From the NCBI RefSeq assembly GCF_001854805.1, contig NZ_MBLO01000206.1:1-39824 (forward strand): a stretch of DNA of 39,824 nucleotides, read 5' to 3'. Below are positions 1,440-35,600 of the stretch, piece by piece. Both the position numbers and the translations under genes were made by a program. Each line of letters opens with the position of its first letter. Positions within the stretch are counted from its first letter, which is position 1. The notes beneath the pieces were generated by a model. The model was not told where the DNA came from. It saw only the letters and a list, made by a program, of their open reading frames with translations, and ran no database searches. This stretch comes from Pseudofrankia coriaricola. Its GTDB lineage: Bacteria > Actinomycetota > Actinomycetes > Frankiales > Frankiaceae.

Positions 1440-4400
1440 TCAGAAGACCGGCCACGCACCGCGTTCTTCCGCGCGTTCGAATGTCCGGCCACTGTTATCC
1501 GAATCGTGGCCCGGCACGCCTGGACCGCCCGCTGACAGGCTCGGTACACCGGCGTTCCTCGTGGCGGCCGCCCGCGCAAGCTCCGCACGGACGCCGTCAG
1601 GACGCAGCCAGCCCAGACCCGCGTCCCGCAGGACGTCCAGCAGACCCTCGACGTCGTCGTCCGTCCAGGCCGCGTCGACCCACCGGCGACGCGCCAGGAA
1701 GGCATCCACATACGGGCGCGCGTCCTGGTCCCAGTCAGCCGGCTGTGGGAACTCGTAGTCCCACGCCAGCTGCCACACCTTCGCTTTCTTGTCCTGCCCG
1801 AGGGACAACACCGTGCGCGCGTCGGAGCTGCATCGCACCGACAGCACGCTGCCGGTGTGCGCGGCCAGGGTACGCAGGCAGCGTCCAGCCGCCAGGTCCC
1901 AGACCCGGACGGACCCGTCAGCCCCGCCGGTCAGGGCGAACCGGCCGTCCGGCGTCAGCACCAGCGAGGTCACCTCGCCGGTGTGGCCGGTGAGCACCCG
2001 CATCGGACGGCTCGCTGCGGACAGGTCCCAGACCATCAGCGCGCCTTCGCTGCCCGCCGTGCATCCGAGCCGCCCGTCCGGCGTCATGGCGACCCTGCTG
2101 AGCTTCCCCGGTCCTGACAACAACATGGTCTCGAGACGGCCGGTAAGCGGGTCGAAAACGCGCAGGCTGTTCTGGAGGCTGCTGATACTCAGCCCGATCC
2201 GGCCGTCATCGCTGATCCTGGTCGAGTCGGCACTGACCACCCAACAGGGCGTGGTCTGCAGCAGGCGTCCTTGTTCCAGATCCCACACCTGCGCGAAGTG
2301 GAGATTGTGGTAGTCGCTGGTCAGCTCGAACTCGTGCGAGATCAGAATGCGGCAGTCGGGGCTGACCGTCAGCGCGGTGACGAACCTGTCGGCCTTCTTG
2401 AGCGTGCGCAGGCACCGCCCGGCGGCCAGGTCCCACACCTTGATCGTGCCATCCAGGCAGCCGGCCACCGCGAGCCGTCCGTCGACGCTCATGACGACCG
2501 CCTCCACCGAGTCAGGGTGGTCGCCGAGGGTGACCCGGCATTCGCCTGACTGGACGTCCCACACCTGGAGGTAGTAGTCGCTGTTCCCGGTCAGCACCGA
2601 CCGGCTGTCCGGGCTGAACACCGCGCACCGGAACTCGGGTCCGTACGTGGACAGCGTCTGGTGGACCTCGCCTGTCGCAGTGTCCTGGATCCGTAGGCCG
2701 GAGCGGTGCCGGGTCAGCGCGAACCGGCCGTCCGGGCTCAGCGCGAACCCGTTCTCCAGCAGCGGGGCGAAGCCCCTCGTGTTGCCGATCGGTATGGACA
2801 GCCCGTCCCTCAGGTCATCCGGGGCCGAGGCCAGGTCTCGAAGATGCCAGGTGCTGAGCAGCCCGACCCGCCGACCGCGTCCGCCTACCTTGGCCCACTG
2901 GTCGAGGATGTCGAGGTCGTGCTCGTATCCGGGCCTGTCGCGGGCCCTGCGCAGCTCCTGGGCGGCCGCGCCCCACTGCCCCTGGCGAGCGAGCTGCCGC
3001 GACCTCGCGATGGCTGTGCTGACGACGTCGGCGTCGCGGGACATCTCGGTGGCCGGCCTCGGCCGCGCGTAGCTCCACGGCGACGGTGGCCCGGCGGCGC
3101 CCGCCGTCCAGAGGCGCAGATCCGCGTTCGCCAGGGAGATGCCGGACCGGCCGTCCGCGCTCAGCGCAGTCTGGTGGCTGCTGAACGGCATCGTCCTGAG
3201 GCATCGGGGCGTCGTCAGCTCCCACACCTCCGTCCCGGCCGCGCCGCCGCCCACCGCATGACGGCCGTCAGCGCTGAGCGCGCCGAATTCGCGGCCCAGC
3301 TCGAACTCGCGTTCCACCCGCATGGTCTCGGTGTTCCAGACCTGTGCCTTGCCCTCGCCGGTCACCAGCGCGTGACGCCCTCCGGTGCCGACCACGACGC
3401 CGTAGTGGCGGAACTGCCTCGAATGTTCGAGGTGACCGGTGCGCAGGGCCCAGACCCGCAGCCGCCGGGTGGGGTAGTCCCAGTGGACGACCCGGCGGCC
3501 CCCGTCGGTGACCGTGACCGACTCGCCGAAACTCGACACCGAGGTGCGTTCCTGCCGCAGCGTCCGCACGAGCCGCCCCGTGGCGACCTCCCACGAGAGG
3601 ATCCGGCCGTCGTCCGCCAGCGACACCAGCGTCGCGCCGTCCGGGCTGACGGACACCGACCTGACCGAACCCGTGTGACCGGTCAGCCGCCGCAGCAGCC
3701 GGCCGGACGGAACATCCCAGACCAGGACGGCCTGGTCGACTCCCCCGGATGCGAGCAGTCGGCCGTCCCTGCTTAGCGCCACCGTCTCGACGCCGCGGTC
3801 GTGGCCTCGCAGGACCTGCAGGCAGCGCCCGGTGGCGACATCCCACACCCTGATGTCGATGGGAGCGCCGTCCGGCCGGGGCGGAATGGACGCATCCCGG
3901 TCGGCGGACGCGGCGATCCGGCCGTCCCCGCTCATCGCGACCGCTGCCACCGGGTTGGCATGACCGGTGAGCGTGTCGGGCTGGCGTGGCCTGGGCATCT
4001 GCCGTGCGCGCGCCAGCGCGGCGTCCACATCCGCGAAGCCCGCCGCGAACCCGGCCGCGGATCCCACGCCGTCACCGTCACCGGCCCTCGTGGCCGCCAT
4101 CTCGAGCAGCGGGATCGCGCTGTCCGGATCGCCACGCTCCAGGTGCACGAGCGCGAGCAGGTAGTCGTCGACCCAGTCCTGCTGCCGGTGACCGGCCCGC
4201 ACCCCCTCGAGCTCGGCGACGAGCTGTGCGTCGGAGCCCCGGCCCGTGCGCCACCGGTTCAGGCCTCGGTTGTAGACCGCGGGGGTGTGGTGCGGGTCGG
4301 CTTGCAGGGCCCGCGCCCACAGCGCCTCGGCCCGCTCGGGATGGCCGAGGTCGAGCATCGACAACGCCTGGTTGGACAGGCCGTCGGCGAGCAGCCGCAC

Positions 4401-30762: not shown

Positions 30763-33105
30763 GTGACCATTGAGGCGACTGCGCGCAGTCAGCCCGAGCG
30801 TGGCCAGCTCGCCGGGCGCGGCCGGTCGCCGGCGTCGGCCCCCGGCTCCGGTGAGCCGGTCCGATGGTCGCTGCTGGACGCCGTGCTGGAGCGGATCACC
30901 TTCGCCAACGAGGAGACCGGGTACACGGTCGCCAAGGTCGACACCGGGCGCGGCGGGGAGCTGGTGACCGTCGTCGGCTCGCTGCTCGGCGCGCAGCCGG
31001 GGGAGTTCCTGCGGATGCGGGGCCGGTGGGGGAGCCACCCCCAGCACGGCCGGCAGTTCCAGGTCGAGGACTACACCCAGGTCCTGCCGGCCACGGTCCA
31101 GGGCATCCGCCGCTACCTCGGCTCCGGGCTGATCAAGGGGATCGGGCCGCGGCTGGCCGAGAACATCGTCGACCACTTCGGCGTCGACGCGCTGGACGTC
31201 ATCGACACGGAGCCCGAACGGCTCATCGAGGTGCCGAAGCTCGGCCCGAAGCGGACGAAGGCGATCGCCGCCGCCTGGGAGGAACAGCGCTCGATCAAGG
31301 AGGTGATGGTCTTCCTGCAGAGCGTCGGCGTCTCCACCTCGCTCGCGGTGAAGATCTACAAGAAGTTCAAGGACGAGTCCGTCGACGTCGTGCGCCGCGA
31401 GCCGTACCGGCTGGCCAGCGACGTGTGGGGGATCGGCTTTCGCACCGCGGACACGATCGCCCAGGCCGTCGGCATCCCGCACGACGCTCCTGAGCGGATC
31501 AAGGCCGGCCTGCAGTACACCCTGTCCGAGTCGACGGGCGACGGGCACTGCTACCTGCCCGAGCAGCGCCTGCTCGCCGACGCCGCGAAGATCCTCGAGG
31601 TAGCGCTGCCAGGGGTGATCGACGCGCTGGCGGAGCTGGTCACCGAGGGCGGCGTCGAGCGCGAGGAGATCCCCGGCGACGACCCGGAGCAGCCGGTGGC
31701 CGCGATCTACCTGGTGCCGTTCCACCGGGCCGAGGTGTCACTGGCCAACCAGCTGCTGCGGCTGCTGGCGGCGGACGACGACCGGCTGGCGGCGTTCGGA
31801 TCGGTCGACTGGGACGCGGCGCGGCGCTGGCTGCGCGGCCGGACCGGTGCCGACCTCGCCCCGGCGCAGGACGAGGCGGTGCGCCTCGCGCTCACCCGGA
31901 AGGTCGCGGTGCTGACCGGCGGCCCGGGCTGCGGGAAGAGCTTCACCGTCCGCTCGATCGTCGAGATGGCGACGGCGAAGGGCGCCAAGGTCGTGCTCGC
32001 GGCGCCGACCGGCCGGGCGGCCAAGCGCCTCACCGAGCTGACCGGCCACTCGGCGGCGACCGTGCACCGGCTGCTGGAGCTGCGCCCCGGCGGCGACGCC
32101 GCCTACGACCGGGACCGCCCACTCGAGGCCGACCTGGTCGTCGTCGACGAGGCGAGCATGCTCGACCTGCTGCTCGCGAACAAGCTCGCCCGGGCGGTCG
32201 CGCCCGGCGCGCACCTGCTGCTCGTCGGCGACGTCGACCAGCTCCCGTCGGTCGGCGCCGGCCAGGTGCTGCGCGACCTGCTCGCCGCCGGCACGCCGGT
32301 GCCTCATGTGCGGCTGACCCACGTGTTCCGCCAGGCCGCCCAGTCCGGCGTCGTCAGCAACGCGCACCGGATCAACGCCGGCGAGTTCCCCCAGGTGCAG
32401 GGCCTGGCGGACTTCTTCCTGTTCGCCTGCGACGAGGCCGAGGACGCAGCGAAGATCACCGTGGACGTGGTCGCGAACCGGATCCCGCGTCGCTTCGGCC
32501 TGGACCCGCGGGTCGACGTGCAGGTGCTCGCCCCGATGCACCGTGGCCCCGCCGGCGCGGGCGCCCTCAACGGCGCGCTGCAGGAGGCGCTCACCCCGAG
32601 CCGGCCGGGAACGCCGGAACGCCGCTTCGGCGGGCGAGTGTTCCGCGTCGGCGACAAGGTCAGCCAGATCCGCAACAACTACGACAAGGGCGCGAACGGC
32701 GTCTTCAACGGCACCCTCGGCATCGTCACCGCCCTCGACCCGGTCGAGCAGACGCTGACGGTGAGTACCGACGAGGGCGAGACCGTCTCCTACGACTTCG
32801 CCGAGCTCGACGAGCTGACCCACGCCTACGCCCTGACGATTCACCGTTCCCAGGGCAGCGAGTATCCGGCCGTCGTCGTCCCGGTGACGATGAGCGCCTG
32901 GATGATGCTGCAGCGCAACCTGCTCTACACCGCCGTCACCCGCGCGAAGAAGCTCGTCGTCCTCGTCGGCTCCAAGAAGGCCATCGGCCGCGCCGTCCGC
33001 GCCGCCTCCGCCGGGCGCCGCCACACTGGCCTCGCCCACCGTCTCCGCGAGGGCCGCATCGTCTCCCTCGCGCCCCCGCCTCCGGAACCGCCGCCAGAGG
33101 AGTAG
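30763..33105 (+). CDS. recD2: RecD2-type ATP-dependent DNA helicase (SF1B)
   Basis: 780 residues from a GTG preceded by GGGAGGG. The N-terminal domain (residues about 30-110) is OB-like, with FANEETGYTVAKV and 'GEFLRMRGRWGSHPQHGRQF' as in RecD2. Helix-hairpin-helix units follow (YLGSGLIKGIGPRLAENIV; LGPKRTKAIAAAW). The motor has Walker A LTGGPGCGKS (384-393), Walker B VVDEASMLD, motif III GDVDQLPSVGAGQVL, and motifs V/VI 'ALTIHRSQGSEYP' and 'LLYTAVTRAKK'. It is a 5'-3' helicase acting without RecBC, linked to genome stability and oxidative-damage resistance. It directly precedes the Y RNA array and the Ro homologue on the same strand. Confidence 0.93.
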   Translation: MTIEATARSQPERGQLAGRGRSPASAPGSGEPVRWSLLDAVLERITFANEETGYTVAKVDTGRGGELVTVVGSLLGAQPGEFLRMRGRWGSHPQHGRQFQVEDYTQVLPATVQGIRRYLGSGLIKGIGPRLAENIVDHFGVDALDVIDTEPERLIEVPKLGPKRTKAIAAAWEEQRSIKEVMVFLQSVGVSTSLAVKIYKKFKDESVDVVRREPYRLASDVWGIGFRTADTIAQAVGIPHDAPERIKAGLQYTLSESTGDGHCYLPEQRLLADAAKILEVALPGVIDALAELVTEGGVEREEIPGDDPEQPVAAIYLVPFHRAEVSLANQLLRLLAADDDRLAAFGSVDWDAARRWLRGRTGADLAPAQDEAVRLALTRKVAVLTGGPGCGKSFTVRSIVEMATAKGAKVVLAAPTGRAAKRLTELTGHSAATVHRLLELRPGGDAAYDRDRPLEADLVVVDEASMLDLLLANKLARAVAPGAHLLLVGDVDQLPSVGAGQVLRDLLAAGTPVPHVRLTHVFRQAAQSGVVSNAHRINAGEFPQVQGLADFFLFACDEAEDAAKITVDVVANRIPRRFGLDPRVDVQVLAPMHRGPAGAGALNGALQEALTPSRPGTPERRFGGRVFRVGDKVSQIRNNYDKGANGVFNGTLGIVTALDPVEQTLTVSTDEGETVSYDFAELDELTHAYALTIHRSQGSEYPAVVVPVTMSAWMMLQRNLLYTAVTRAKKLVVLVGSKKAIGRAVRAASAGRRHTGLAHRLREGRIVSLAPPPPEPPPEE

Positions 33106-33147
33106 GCGGGCATCGAGCGGCGCGTCCCGGGGCGAAGCAAAAACCAG

Positions 33148-33176
33148 TTTCGAGAAGAGTGGCCGGGTCGTACTCT
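33148..33176 (+). promoter_or_regulatory. Candidate promoter of the Y RNA array
   Basis: TTTCGA at 33148-33153, a 17-nt spacer and TACTCT at 33171-33176 (TAnnnT form). A start 7-8 nt after the -10 falls at 33183-33184, exactly where the terminal helix of unit 1 begins. The same bases form an AAGAGT/ACTCTT hairpin (33155-33177) that could instead end recD2 transcripts. Confidence 0.5.
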
Positions 33177-33183
33177 TTGTCTT

Positions 33184-33253
33184 GTCCGAAGTGAAGGCCG
33201 AGGGTTACTTCCTCTCAAGAAGATCCCACCTTCGGCCGTACTGGTTCTCGGAC
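33184..33253 (+). ncRNA. Y RNA-like unit 1 (short form, no tRNA module)
   Basis: A terminal helix GTCCGA (33184-33189) pairs with TCGGAC (33248-33253). It carries the array's conserved strands CCGAAGTG and CTGGTTCTCGG. An inner helix GGCCGA/TCGGCC follows, then a hairpin with GGG...CCC and CTTC/GAAG pairing. At 70 nt it consists of the putative Ro-binding helix and a simple loop only. Calling it a Y RNA rests on the shared helix and on position upstream of a Ro gene. Confidence 0.7.
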
Positions 33254-33271
33254 GCCACCGCTGGATATTGG

Positions 33272-33407
33272 GTGCCGAAGTGAACGGGTAGGCTTACTTC
33301 TAATCTACGGGTCGCGGGTTCGAGTCCCGCCTCGGCGGTCGCTGGCCGTCGGGTAGCTCAGAAGGCAGAGCAGTAGACAACAGCTTCCCGGACCTGGTTC
33401 TCGGCAT
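33272..33407 (+). ncRNA. Y RNA (YrlA-like) unit 2 with permuted tRNA module
   Basis: The terminal helix is TGCCGA (33273-33278) with TCGGCA (33401-33406), extended by a G-U pair, plus CGGG/CCCG. The insert folds as a circularly permuted tRNA. The 3' half of the anticodon stem, TCTAC (33304-33308), is followed by variable loop GGGTC. The T arm is GCGGG-TTCGAGT-CCCGC (33314-33330). Acceptor strand CTCGGCG (33331-33337) is joined by a 9-nt loop to CGTCGGG (33347-33353), all seven positions pairing with two wobbles. Then come TA and the D arm GCTC-AGAAGGCA-GAGC (33356-33371). The 5' half of the anticodon stem is GTAGA (33373-33377). The open anticodon end runs into the Ro-binding helix, as in bacterial YrlA. 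Confidence 0.88.
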
Positions 33408-33420
33408 CTTCATCCGGGGC

Positions 33421-33529
33421 GGTGTCGAAGTGCTTGGCTGGCGTACTTCTGGGTTCGACTCCTTGTAGCCCCACCCCTGGGGCTATGCCCTTCTGGGGGC
33501 AGACGCCGTCCGACCTGGTCCTCGACACC
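33421..33529 (+). ncRNA. Y RNA (YrlA-like) unit 3 with permuted tRNA module
   Basis: The terminal helix has eight perfect pairs: GGTGTCGA (33421-33428) with TCGACACC (33522-33529). In this unit the usual CCGA/TCGG has become TCGA/TCGA, a compensated change. The insert contains anticodon-stem halves GGCGT (33440-33444) and ACGCC (33503-33507), five pairs. The T loop TTCGACT lies on a weaker stem. The acceptor TAGCCCC (33466-33472)/GGGGCTA (33479-33485) has seven perfect pairs closed by a 6-nt loop. The D arm is GCCC-TTCTGG-GGGC (33487-33500). Confidence 0.87.
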
Positions 33530-33540
33530 GTCACGCGCCA

Positions 33541-33683
33541 CGGCGGTACCGAAGTGCAGGGTGGGGTTCCTTCCGCTGCGGACGGGGTAACGCGGGTTCG
33601 AATCCCGCCGGGACTTTCGGGTCTCGTCGTCTAGTGGACCAGGACGCCTTGGTCCTCGCCCGATCTGGTTCTCGGTACCGCCG
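33541..33683 (+). ncRNA. Y RNA (YrlA-like) unit 4 with permuted tRNA module and UUCG cap
   Basis: The terminal helix has 12 perfect pairs: CGGCGGTACCGA (33541-33552) with 33672-33683. The T arm is GCGGG-TTCGAAT-CCCGC (33592-33608). Acceptor strand CGGGACT (33609-33615) pairs at seven positions (two wobbles) with GGTCTCG (33620-33626) across a TTCG tetraloop. Then come TC and a tRNA-Glu-like D arm with stem GTCT/GGAC and GG in the loop (33629-33645). The anticodon-stem halves are CGGGG (33583-33587) and CCTTG (33647-33651), five pairs with two wobbles. An extra GCAG/CTGC hairpin lies at about 33556-33579. It ends 42 nt before the Ro gene. Confidence 0.87.
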
Positions 33684-33725
33684 CGGCGAATTCCGGCGTG
33701 GCGTTCCCGTGGGAAAGGGGACACT

Positions 33726-35327
33726 GTGGGAAAGCTCGTGAAGGCCGCCGCGCGGTTCGGCGCCACCGGCCCGGTCCGCACGACCGGCGAGCGCACCGCG
33801 ACCGCCGAGGGCGGCGCCGGCTGGGCGCGTGATGTCAAGAGTGAGCTCTTCACGCTCGCGATCACCAACCTCGTCTCGGAGGACACCATCTACGAGGCCG
33901 GCCGCGACCGGGACAGCCGGTTCGTCAGCCTGCTCTGGGAGGCCGTCGCCCAGGACGCCGCGTGGGTGGCCCGGCTCATCCCCTGGCTGCGCGACGGCGC
34001 GAACCTGCGCACCGCGTCGGTCATCGCCGCGGCCGAGTACGCCCGGGCGCTCGCGGCCCTGCCCGACGCCGCCCGCGCGGCCGCGCCGACCGTCCGCTCG
34101 GTCATCGCGGGCGCGCTGCGACGCGCGGACGAGCCTGGCGAGTTCGCCGCCTACTGGCTCGCCGGGCGCCGTCCCGGCCGCAACAGCCTGCCGGGCGGTG
34201 TGCAGCGCGGTGTCGCCGACGCGGCGACGCGGCTGTTCACCGAGCGCGCGGCGCTGAAGTACGACGGCCACCGGCAGGCGTTCCGCCTCGGCGACGTGGT
34301 GGAGCTCGCCCGGCCGACCCCGTCGGCCCCCTGGCAGGACGACCTGTTCCGCTACCTGCTCGACCGCCGTCACCACGACGACGCCGTCGCGACCGAGAAC
34401 CTTCCGATGCTGCGCGCCCGCGTGGCGCTGGAGGAGATCGCCGCGGCGGACCGTGCCGACACGCTGCGGTCGTGGGGCGCCGACGCGCCGGACCGGCTCG
34501 CGCGAGCCGGGATGACGTGGGAGGCGCTGGCCGGTTGGCTCGGCGGTCCGATGGACGCCACCGCCTGGTCGGCCATGATCCCGTCGATGGGCCTCATGGC
34601 ACAGATCCGCAACCTGCGGAACTTCGACGAGGCCGGGGTCTCGGACGAGGTCGCGGGCCAGGTCGCGGCGCGGCTCGCCGATGCCGAGCAGGTCCGCGCG
34701 TCGCGGATGTTCCCGCTGCGGTTCCTCGCGGCGTACAAGACGGCGCCGTCGGCCCGCTGGGCGTGGCCGCTGGAGCAGGCGGTCAGCCACTCGCTGGCGA
34801 ACGTCCCGTCGCTGCCGGGCCGCACGCTGGTGCTCGTCGACCAGTCCGGCTCGATGGCCGCGCCGCTCTCGGCCCGCTCCGCGCTGACCCGCGCGGAGGC
34901 TGCGGCGCTGTTCGGCTTCGCGGTCGGCCTGCGCGCCGAGAAGGCGGACGTCTACGTCTACGGCGCGGAGGGCGGCTGGAACGACCTGAAGCCGAAGCAC
35001 CAGCGGGTGCGGCTGCCGAAGGGTGGCTCGCTGCTCCCGCTCGTCGACAAGCACGGGCAGGCGGACCTGGGTGGCACGCTGACCTGGACGACGCTGCGGC
35101 ACACCTACGCGGGCCACGCGCGGGTGGTGATCGTGACCGACGAGCAGGCGCACGACAGCCCGGACAACCTGCCCGACGTCCCGATCGTCACGTTCAACGT
35201 GGCCGGCTACCGCGCCGCCCACGTGGCGGCGGCGCCGAACCGGGTGACCGTCGGCGGTCTTTCTGACGCCGGCTTCACCATGCTCGGCCACCTCGACAGC
35301 CGCCGCCGGGGCGACTGGCCGTTCTGA
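33726..35327 (+). CDS. rsr: TROVE-domain/vWA protein, Ro60 (Rsr) homologue
   Basis: 533 residues from a GTG with GGGAAAGGGG upstream. The N-terminal two thirds is the helical-repeat TROVE ring that binds Y RNAs and misfolded RNA ends ('ELFTLAITNLVSEDTIYEAG', 'RDGANLRTASVIAAAEYARA', 'MPSMGLMAQIRNLRNFDEAGV'-type segments). The C-terminal von Willebrand A domain has an intact MIDAS: D372-Q-S374-G-S376, and the TDEQ loop near residue 477. Ro proteins act in RNA quality control and stress survival. With Y RNA they can gate access of exoribonucleases such as PNPase. Four Y RNA-like units lie directly upstream, and no rtcB ligase is nearby. The terminator follows the stop by 14 bp. Confidence 0.95.
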   Translation: MGKLVKAAARFGATGPVRTTGERTATAEGGAGWARDVKSELFTLAITNLVSEDTIYEAGRDRDSRFVSLLWEAVAQDAAWVARLIPWLRDGANLRTASVIAAAEYARALAALPDAARAAAPTVRSVIAGALRRADEPGEFAAYWLAGRRPGRNSLPGGVQRGVADAATRLFTERAALKYDGHRQAFRLGDVVELARPTPSAPWQDDLFRYLLDRRHHDDAVATENLPMLRARVALEEIAAADRADTLRSWGADAPDRLARAGMTWEALAGWLGGPMDATAWSAMIPSMGLMAQIRNLRNFDEAGVSDEVAGQVAARLADAEQVRASRMFPLRFLAAYKTAPSARWAWPLEQAVSHSLANVPSLPGRTLVLVDQSGSMAAPLSARSALTRAEAAALFGFAVGLRAEKADVYVYGAEGGWNDLKPKHQRVRLPKGGSLLPLVDKHGQADLGGTLTWTTLRHTYAGHARVVIVTDEQAHDSPDNLPDVPIVTFNVAGYRAAHVAAAPNRVTVGGLSDAGFTMLGHLDSRRRGDWPF

Positions 35328-35340
35328 CGGCCAGACCCGT

Positions 35341-35384
35341 GCCGGGGCCGGCGCGGCGGATCCGTCCGCCGCGCCGGCCCCGGC
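35341..35384 (+). terminator. Strong hairpin terminator after the Ro gene
   Basis: A perfect 20-bp inverted repeat (35341-35360 with 35365-35384) with the 4-nt loop TCCG begins 14 bp after the Ro stop. It has no T tract. 35385-35600 shows nothing else. Confidence 0.8.
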
Positions 35385-35600
35385 GTCGGCTCCGGCCCAC
35401 CGCCGGTCAGGCTGCCGTGCGTCGCCACGCGAGTGGCTGTGCGGCGGTCGGCTGACGGGCCGGAGTAGCTCGCCGCCTGCCGCTCGATGACCGGGTGGGA
35501 GGCGGGTCCGGCCCGGGCGCAGTCAGCCTGGCCGTTTGAGCATGATTCGCGACCGAACGTGCAGAGACGGACACGTTCGCGAAGCGGTACACCTCAGAGT

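Follow-up and report, generated by a model that had tools for sequence, protein, structure and literature searches.

A conserved array of four predicted Y RNAs with differing heads upstream of a TROVE gene in Pseudofrankia coriaricola

In Deinococcus, Salmonella and M. smegmatis, Y RNAs were reported to be bound at their lower stem by the Ro60 protein Rsr; the Deinococcus Y RNA also serves as a tether between Rsr and PNPase and as a gate for its substrates (PMC4726728). The tRNA-like part of such RNAs is modified by DusA and TruB (PMC8394870), and YrlA has been proposed as a competitor of a tRNA-cutting nuclease (PMC7790460). The Salmonella operon rsr-yrlBA-rtcBA combines two Y RNAs with the Ro60 gene (PMC7790460); there, the Y RNAs lie after rsr and together with RNA-repair genes. 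In contrast, the window analyzed here (the whole stretch of 39,824 bases of P. coriaricola DNA) carries four Y RNA-like units before a TROVE gene, and no RtcA/RtcB domain was detected among the five nearby proteins scanned. Two of the units, B and D, are like YrlA (RF02553) in having a permuted tRNA-like domain (T-arm, acceptor, D-arm), a long stem and an adjoining Ro60 gene. They differ from YrlA in that both stay below the Rfam gathering score of 69, which is a curated threshold and no biological trait (B, 38.4 bits, E 2e-6; D, 20.5 bits, partial match), in belonging to an array of four, and in their heads, as one head of the window is tRNA-Glu-like and others are a half mimic or plain. By analogy, the principle is likely the same as in the Deinococcus RYPER, where the base binds Ro60 and the head tethers an enzyme (PMC4726728, PMC8394870).

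Locus layout, the four units and the TROVE protein

The four units were confirmed to lie upstream of the TROVE gene (Table 1), filling positions 33183-33683 downstream of recD2, which ends at 33105; the end of unit D is about 42 nt from the TROVE gene. Each has a long base stem built from its 5' and 3' ends, as seen by folding and covariation, and a UACUUC-type motif after the inner helix (UCCUUC in D). Folding z-scores were -3.1, -1.8, -3.3 and -3.5 for units A to D, with B weak by z-score alone. Three head architectures were found: a plain stem in A, a T-arm and an acceptor-like hairpin in C, and a permuted elbow of T-arm, acceptor and D-arm in B and D, the full tRNA-like domain being absent from A and C. 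The original prediction had counted two architectures, and it overlooked that B and D mimic different tRNAs and that the UACUUC-type motif is common to the units. Its closing triplets (GTC/GAC, TGC/GCA, TGT/ACA and TAC/GTA) are as claimed and all pair, whereas its common opening sequence fails for unit C, which opens TCGAAGTG instead of CCGAAGTG, and its spacers of 11-18 nt measure 16-19 nt by model bounds and are shorter when the helices are extended.

Table 1 Features of the array and its surroundings; unit bounds are approximate and given with the closing helices extended.
Feature	Positions	Strand	Description
Likely single promoter	33139-33176	+	by eye, upstream of unit A
Promoter parts	33139-33145; 33148-33153; 33171-33176		A-rich AAAAACC; -35-like TTTCGA; -10-like TACTCT
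Unit A	33183-33254	+	Y RNA-like; base stem and plain stem-loop head; UACUUC 33206-33211
Unit B	33270-33409	+	YrlA-type, permuted tRNA elbow; UACUUC 33295-33300
Unit B elbow	33314-33330; 33331-33337 / 33347-33353; 33356-33371		T-arm; acceptor-like strands; generic D-arm
Unit C	33418-33532	+	half mimic without D-arm; UACUUC 33444-33449
Unit C hairpins	33451-33463; 33466-33485; 33487-33500		T-arm-like; acceptor-like; GC hairpin
Unit D	33542-33683	+	tRNA-Glu-like permuted elbow; UCCUUC 33568-33573
Unit D elbow	33592-33608; 33609-33615 / 33620-33626; 33629-33645		T-arm; acceptor-like strands, UUCG-closed; D-arm
TROVE/Ro60-like protein	33726-35327	+	533 aa; vWA metal motif DxSxS, residues 372-376

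The units themselves were ruled out as tRNA genes, as the anticodon arm is absent and the arm order is permuted. A tRNA-Arg called by ARAGORN at 33545-33616 covers base and T-arm sequence of unit D and is most likely false.

The protein matched Pfam TROVE with 52.5 bits (cut-off, 23), and D372, S374 and S376 of its metal motif were invariant in 11 sequences. It matched no NCBIfam family, including the Rsr equivalog NF041674, and therefore represents a divergent TROVE subfamily. In a profile search against the PDB, its closest solved sequence relatives were the TROVE domain-containing protein of 9kop/9l5y (E 3e-53), which are only distantly alike, followed by Ro60 itself (9nen, E 5e-9; 1yvp, E 1e-8).

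Conservation of the units and their association with TROVE genes

Two covariance models were built: R1 from 41 tRNA-like units of TROVE loci, with B and D in its training set, and R2 from 28 such units, none of them from the window's family and none Glu-like. When run on the 39,824-base window, R2 still found B (77.9 bits, E 4.5e-16), D (70.7 bits, E 2e-14) and A (28.3 bits, E 8.4e-5), so that the Y RNA reading holds with the family left out, but gave no report of unit C up to E 10. Across all 11.2 Mb of the genome, B and D likewise took the top two ranks among R2 matches. R1 found all four units, including A (38.8 bits, E 1.9e-7) and C (25.6 bits, E 2.3e-4). The Rfam YrlA model produced 12 matches of 33.6-53.8 bits in eight relatives and stayed below gathering throughout the actinobacterial TROVE loci tested. 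It scored RNAs beside DUF7873 genes, described below, about as highly (31-38 bits at three of four loci), and a YrlA score alone is therefore no proof of a Ro60 partner. Judged from sequence, this is a real, conserved Y RNA array, with RNA production and Ro60 binding predicted.

Covariation in homologues, which the original prediction had named as the test of selected RNA structure, came out positive. Across 41 homologous units (alignment A4), 97.6% of pair cells were standard pairs, both sides had changed in 22 of 31 pairs, and the covariation score was 0.522 compared with 0.169 for shuffled alignments (0/500), with slid controls at or below 0.121. The acceptor-like helix was clearest (98.2% paired, up to six pair types per position), and covariation of the outer stem is inflated because the parser picked units by outer pairing. 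Restricting the alignment to the T, acceptor and D helices, and excluding the window's family and Glu-like units (A9), gave 0.549 compared with 0.158 shuffled (0/500); nine pairs had changed on both sides compared with 7.3 (32/500), and the four D-stem pairs were invariant. Short units like A (A6, n = 32) scored 0.454 compared with 0.165. For unit C, aligned with eight homologues of which seven lie outside the family (A5, n = 9), the signal was modest (0.235 compared with 0.113, 1/500; both-side changes, 108/500).

The units and TROVE genes occur together. At E 1e-10, the TROVE profile A2 matched 51 of the 393 class genomes searched, and among the R1 matches listed, scores of at least 60 bits were found in 48 of the 393, all of which hold a TROVE gene. 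Forty-six of these belong to the 51, and the other two (G321, G382) have a TROVE gene by Pfam beside the RNA. Five of the 51 (G023, G044, G168, G193 and G355) had no listed R1 match of at least 60 bits; this search applied strict filters, scored eight candidates per genome and can miss matches. The 60-bit cut-off was chosen after Streptomyces-type genomes had yielded R1 matches of 52 and 57 bits (L176, L173) that turned out to be tandem tRNA-Asn genes, for which reason weaker matches were left out of the tally. It excludes at least one genuine locus, G064, whose R1 match beside TROVE reached 55.6 bits. For some units of G349, G361 and G202, their contig holds no Pfam TROVE match within 500 kb. 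Y RNA-type units away from TROVE matches were also noted at L163, L164, L170 and L171 (G349, G356, G370 and G202); their D-arms, of the type GGCCGAGUGGUCCAAGGC, are similar to those of class II tRNAs.

Arrays are ordinary at TROVE loci of this actinobacterial subfamily. Sixty-six TROVE upstream regions were parsed (56 from 50 of the 51 TROVE genomes and 10 from named records; G168, with TROVE fragments only, lies outside them), no two of which were identical over their last 300 bases. At least one unit was present in 63, at least two in 57, at least three in 25, at least four in 12 and more than five in none. Each of four TROVE phages examined likewise had two or three R1 matches of at least 49 bits beside its TROVE gene, with more units visible by eye. 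The array of four had been predicted to be unusual, which these counts contradict. The three regions in which no unit was parsed belong to G355, G286 (its parsed locus) and L025, a Gallionellaceae MAG where a related motif was seen by eye. The parser dropped calls more than 700 nt upstream with a score below 6.2, except at L060 and L062, and its ends are wrong or doubtful for the last unit of L047 and for L022, L050 and L065. It placed UACUUC in 143 of 159 units, a count inflated because UACUUC-type motifs, like outer pairing, are part of its own search patterns.

The order stem, tRNA-like, T-arm-only, tRNA-like occurred at eight of the 66 loci (the window, G005, G006, G272, G376, G117 and Actinomadura L017 and L018), and the same order with an extra tRNA-like unit after the first at two (G175 and G087). 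The layout of the window is common to its own family (Frankia and Pseudofrankia by named records) and at least one other (f17). A generic scan revealed a split in the 5' pattern, which is CGAAGU/CG in the window's family and mostly GGUGCG followed by AG in other taxa, and the family was then parsed with a separate pattern; it looks as if the handle and the protein had changed together in this family. At L166 (G321), three tRNA-like Y RNA units, one of them Glu-like, lie at 2902-3354 upstream of a TROVE gene for which the NCBIfam Rsr model gave a match below its cut-off. Because this gene resembles Rsr, arrays are not confined to the TROVE subfamily of the window. At L004 (G006; reverse strand, about 640-1500), the array and the intact TROVE frame are separated by roughly 840 bp of inserted sequence, which carries a reading frame that resembles an HNH nuclease by eye.

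Isotype-diverse heads in actinobacteria and phages

When compared with the tRNAs of its own genome, the D-arm of unit D reached 40/52 with tRNA-Glu(CUC) and 28 with the best other isotype. Over the D-arm region, 20 of 22 bases are those of tRNA-Glu(CUC) (21 of 22 in a relative, G004), and the variable loop of unit D is short; a variable loop without base 47 is a trait of tRNA-Glu. The D-arm of unit B is generic and close to several isotypes. Alignment covered 150 of 161 R1 matches; the D and T regions were usable in 108 of them, and 107 were classified, by pattern and by alignment to the tRNAs of the window's genome only, into 73 generic, 11 Glu, 5 Leu, 4 Gln, 4 class-II-like, 1 fMet and 9 other units, with at least one unit counted twice (L045 and L160). 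Some assignments are weak, such as the Glu-like unit of G087 (13/22) and the Gln calls, which were made by small margins. Fifteen of 28 loci with at least two classified units had mixed D-arm classes, in a set that also contains units distant from TROVE and one duplicated array. The base before C48 was a non-pyrimidine in all 11 Glu-like units, which fits a variable loop lacking base 47, and a pyrimidine in 64 of the 73 generic ones (Fisher test for the V-loop, 9e-9, uncorrected for relatedness). A literature search outside the founding papers returned no description of isotype-specific heads or of actinobacterial Y RNA arrays. The graded, isotype-diverse tRNA mimicry looks new, while the arrays themselves are common.

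Relatives of the TROVE protein occur in 91 phage records, of which BRock, GiJojo, Atuin and VanLee were examined. The TROVE gene lies among tRNA genes in the first three. In VanLee, a single tRNA is annotated in the vicinity, and its position is that of an R1 match. In Atuin, the units are downstream of the TROVE gene. Annotated tRNA-Arg genes are R1 matches in GiJojo (57.1 bits) and VanLee (108.5 bits); the GiJojo score is no higher than that of a tandem tRNA pair, and a base stem and motif are visible there. Gln-like elbows were seen by eye in GiJojo and Atuin. This setting suggests, without proving, that heads were taken from neighbouring tRNAs. The window's own genome also contains a dense, phage-array-like cluster of 21 tRNA matches (G000:C11:2197-5143, L110).

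Permuted tRNA-like RNAs were also encountered beside a different gene. Within 900 nt after genes for DUF7873 (PF25283), such RNAs follow at 33 of 35 loci (L178-L212; own genome, G000:C240:23920-25072, L181 and L177), two of them at 24 loci and one at nine. DUF7873 was found in 73 phage records and in 36 of the 393 class genomes, three of which belong to the same genus and have no TROVE match (G001, G003 and G007), and no paper naming it was found in a literature search. The DUF7873 genes of phages Mimi, Phendrix and NiceHouse (L217, L218 and L219) adjoin tRNA clusters or are embedded in them, and similar tRNA-like RNAs follow immediately downstream, as judged by eye and by weak R1 matches (21-30 bits). 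This looks like a second tRNA-mimic RNA system independent of Ro60. A lone permuted tRNA-like RNA at G000:C88:20326-20388 (L221; R2, 42.9 bits, with the match limited to its tRNA part) is followed by a terminator-like hairpin and has no Y RNA base stem matched by the model.

Expression, function and meaning of the array

The -10-like TACTCT lies 7 nt before GTCCGAAG of unit A, and the form TANNNT is kept in four aligned genomes of the genus. A TANNNT box 2-10 nt upstream was present at 30 of 63 first units compared with 1 of 96 inner units, leaving 33 first units without one; this range was chosen after the offsets had been seen, and 0-12 nt gave 34/63 compared with 2/96. Spacers measured 10-24 nt in 83 of 96 cases (longest, 118), and the last unit lay 28-278 nt upstream of TROVE at the parsed loci. 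A sigma-70 consensus scan of 33000-35600 returned no promoter and no terminator. Because a -10-like box occurs at about half of the first units and almost never at inner ones, one transcript is likely, which points to a single precursor that would later be cut.

The explanation we favor, at a probability of roughly 0.8, is that the promoter before unit A would drive one transcript that comprises the four Y RNAs and probably also the mRNA for TROVE, in which each unit would fold independently before being cut out. The shared base (closing helix, asymmetric internal loop, inner helix and UACUUC-type loop) would bind the TROVE protein of the same locus, and the differing heads (none in A, T-arm and acceptor-like hairpin in C, generic elbow in B, tRNA-Glu-like elbow in D) would split the Ro60 pool into distinct RNPs, allowing one protein to serve several of them. 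The heads may gate the Ro60 cavity and tether different partners, such as PNPase and tRNA-handling enzymes. The position of the array directly before TROVE, with no terminator found, would also suit a cis-acting leader of the TROVE mRNA, by binding which Ro60 would control its own synthesis. We consider this unlikely as the sole role, since units also occur more than 500 kb from TROVE (G349, G361 and G202) and downstream of it in Atuin, and since a pure leader would not need heads that are tRNA-like and varied; leader function could be an added role. Decay of a tandem tRNA cluster, for example a phage tRNA array, is very improbable: tandem tRNA-Asn genes do reach 52 and 57 bits with R1 (two cases examined) and the TROVE genes of BRock, GiJojo and Atuin do lie in tRNA clusters, but the units have base stems of their own and motifs in common, none has an anticodon arm, unit A lacks any tRNA part, and B and D score 70-100 bits.

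Within the favored explanation of one transcript cut into four Ro60-binding RNAs, what the D-arm classes do is a separate question, and we put the odds at about even that they have no function, any elbow serving and heads being swapped neutrally with neighbouring tRNA genes. The class varies by relative and by position (the Glu-like unit is last in the window and second in G117), and phage arrays are surrounded by tRNA genes of many different isotypes. Against this, all four array-bearing genomes of the genus retain the Glu-like D-arm, and the D-arm class goes together with the base preceding C48; relatedness could explain both observations. Isotype-specific roles are thus possible but unproven, with neutral swapping explaining the diversity about as well. 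More tentatively still, Ro60 loci of actinobacteria and phages may display isotype-diverse tRNA elbows (generic, Glu, Gln, Leu, fMet and class-II-like) on one Ro60 handle. Such heads would have been picked up from tRNA genes nearby, plausibly within phage clusters of them, and each would act as bait, decoy or tether for tRNA-specific enzymes, e.g., tRNA-cleaving toxins.

RNAs of this kind can be mistaken for tRNAs, as by ARAGORN here and in the records of two phages, or can be missed because the Rfam model fails to reach its threshold. Overall, the occurrence of no mimic, a half mimic and two different full mimics on one base provides a natural comparison set for head function, and isotype-specific elbows, if true, would point to tRNA-specific enzymes as the partners of these RNAs.
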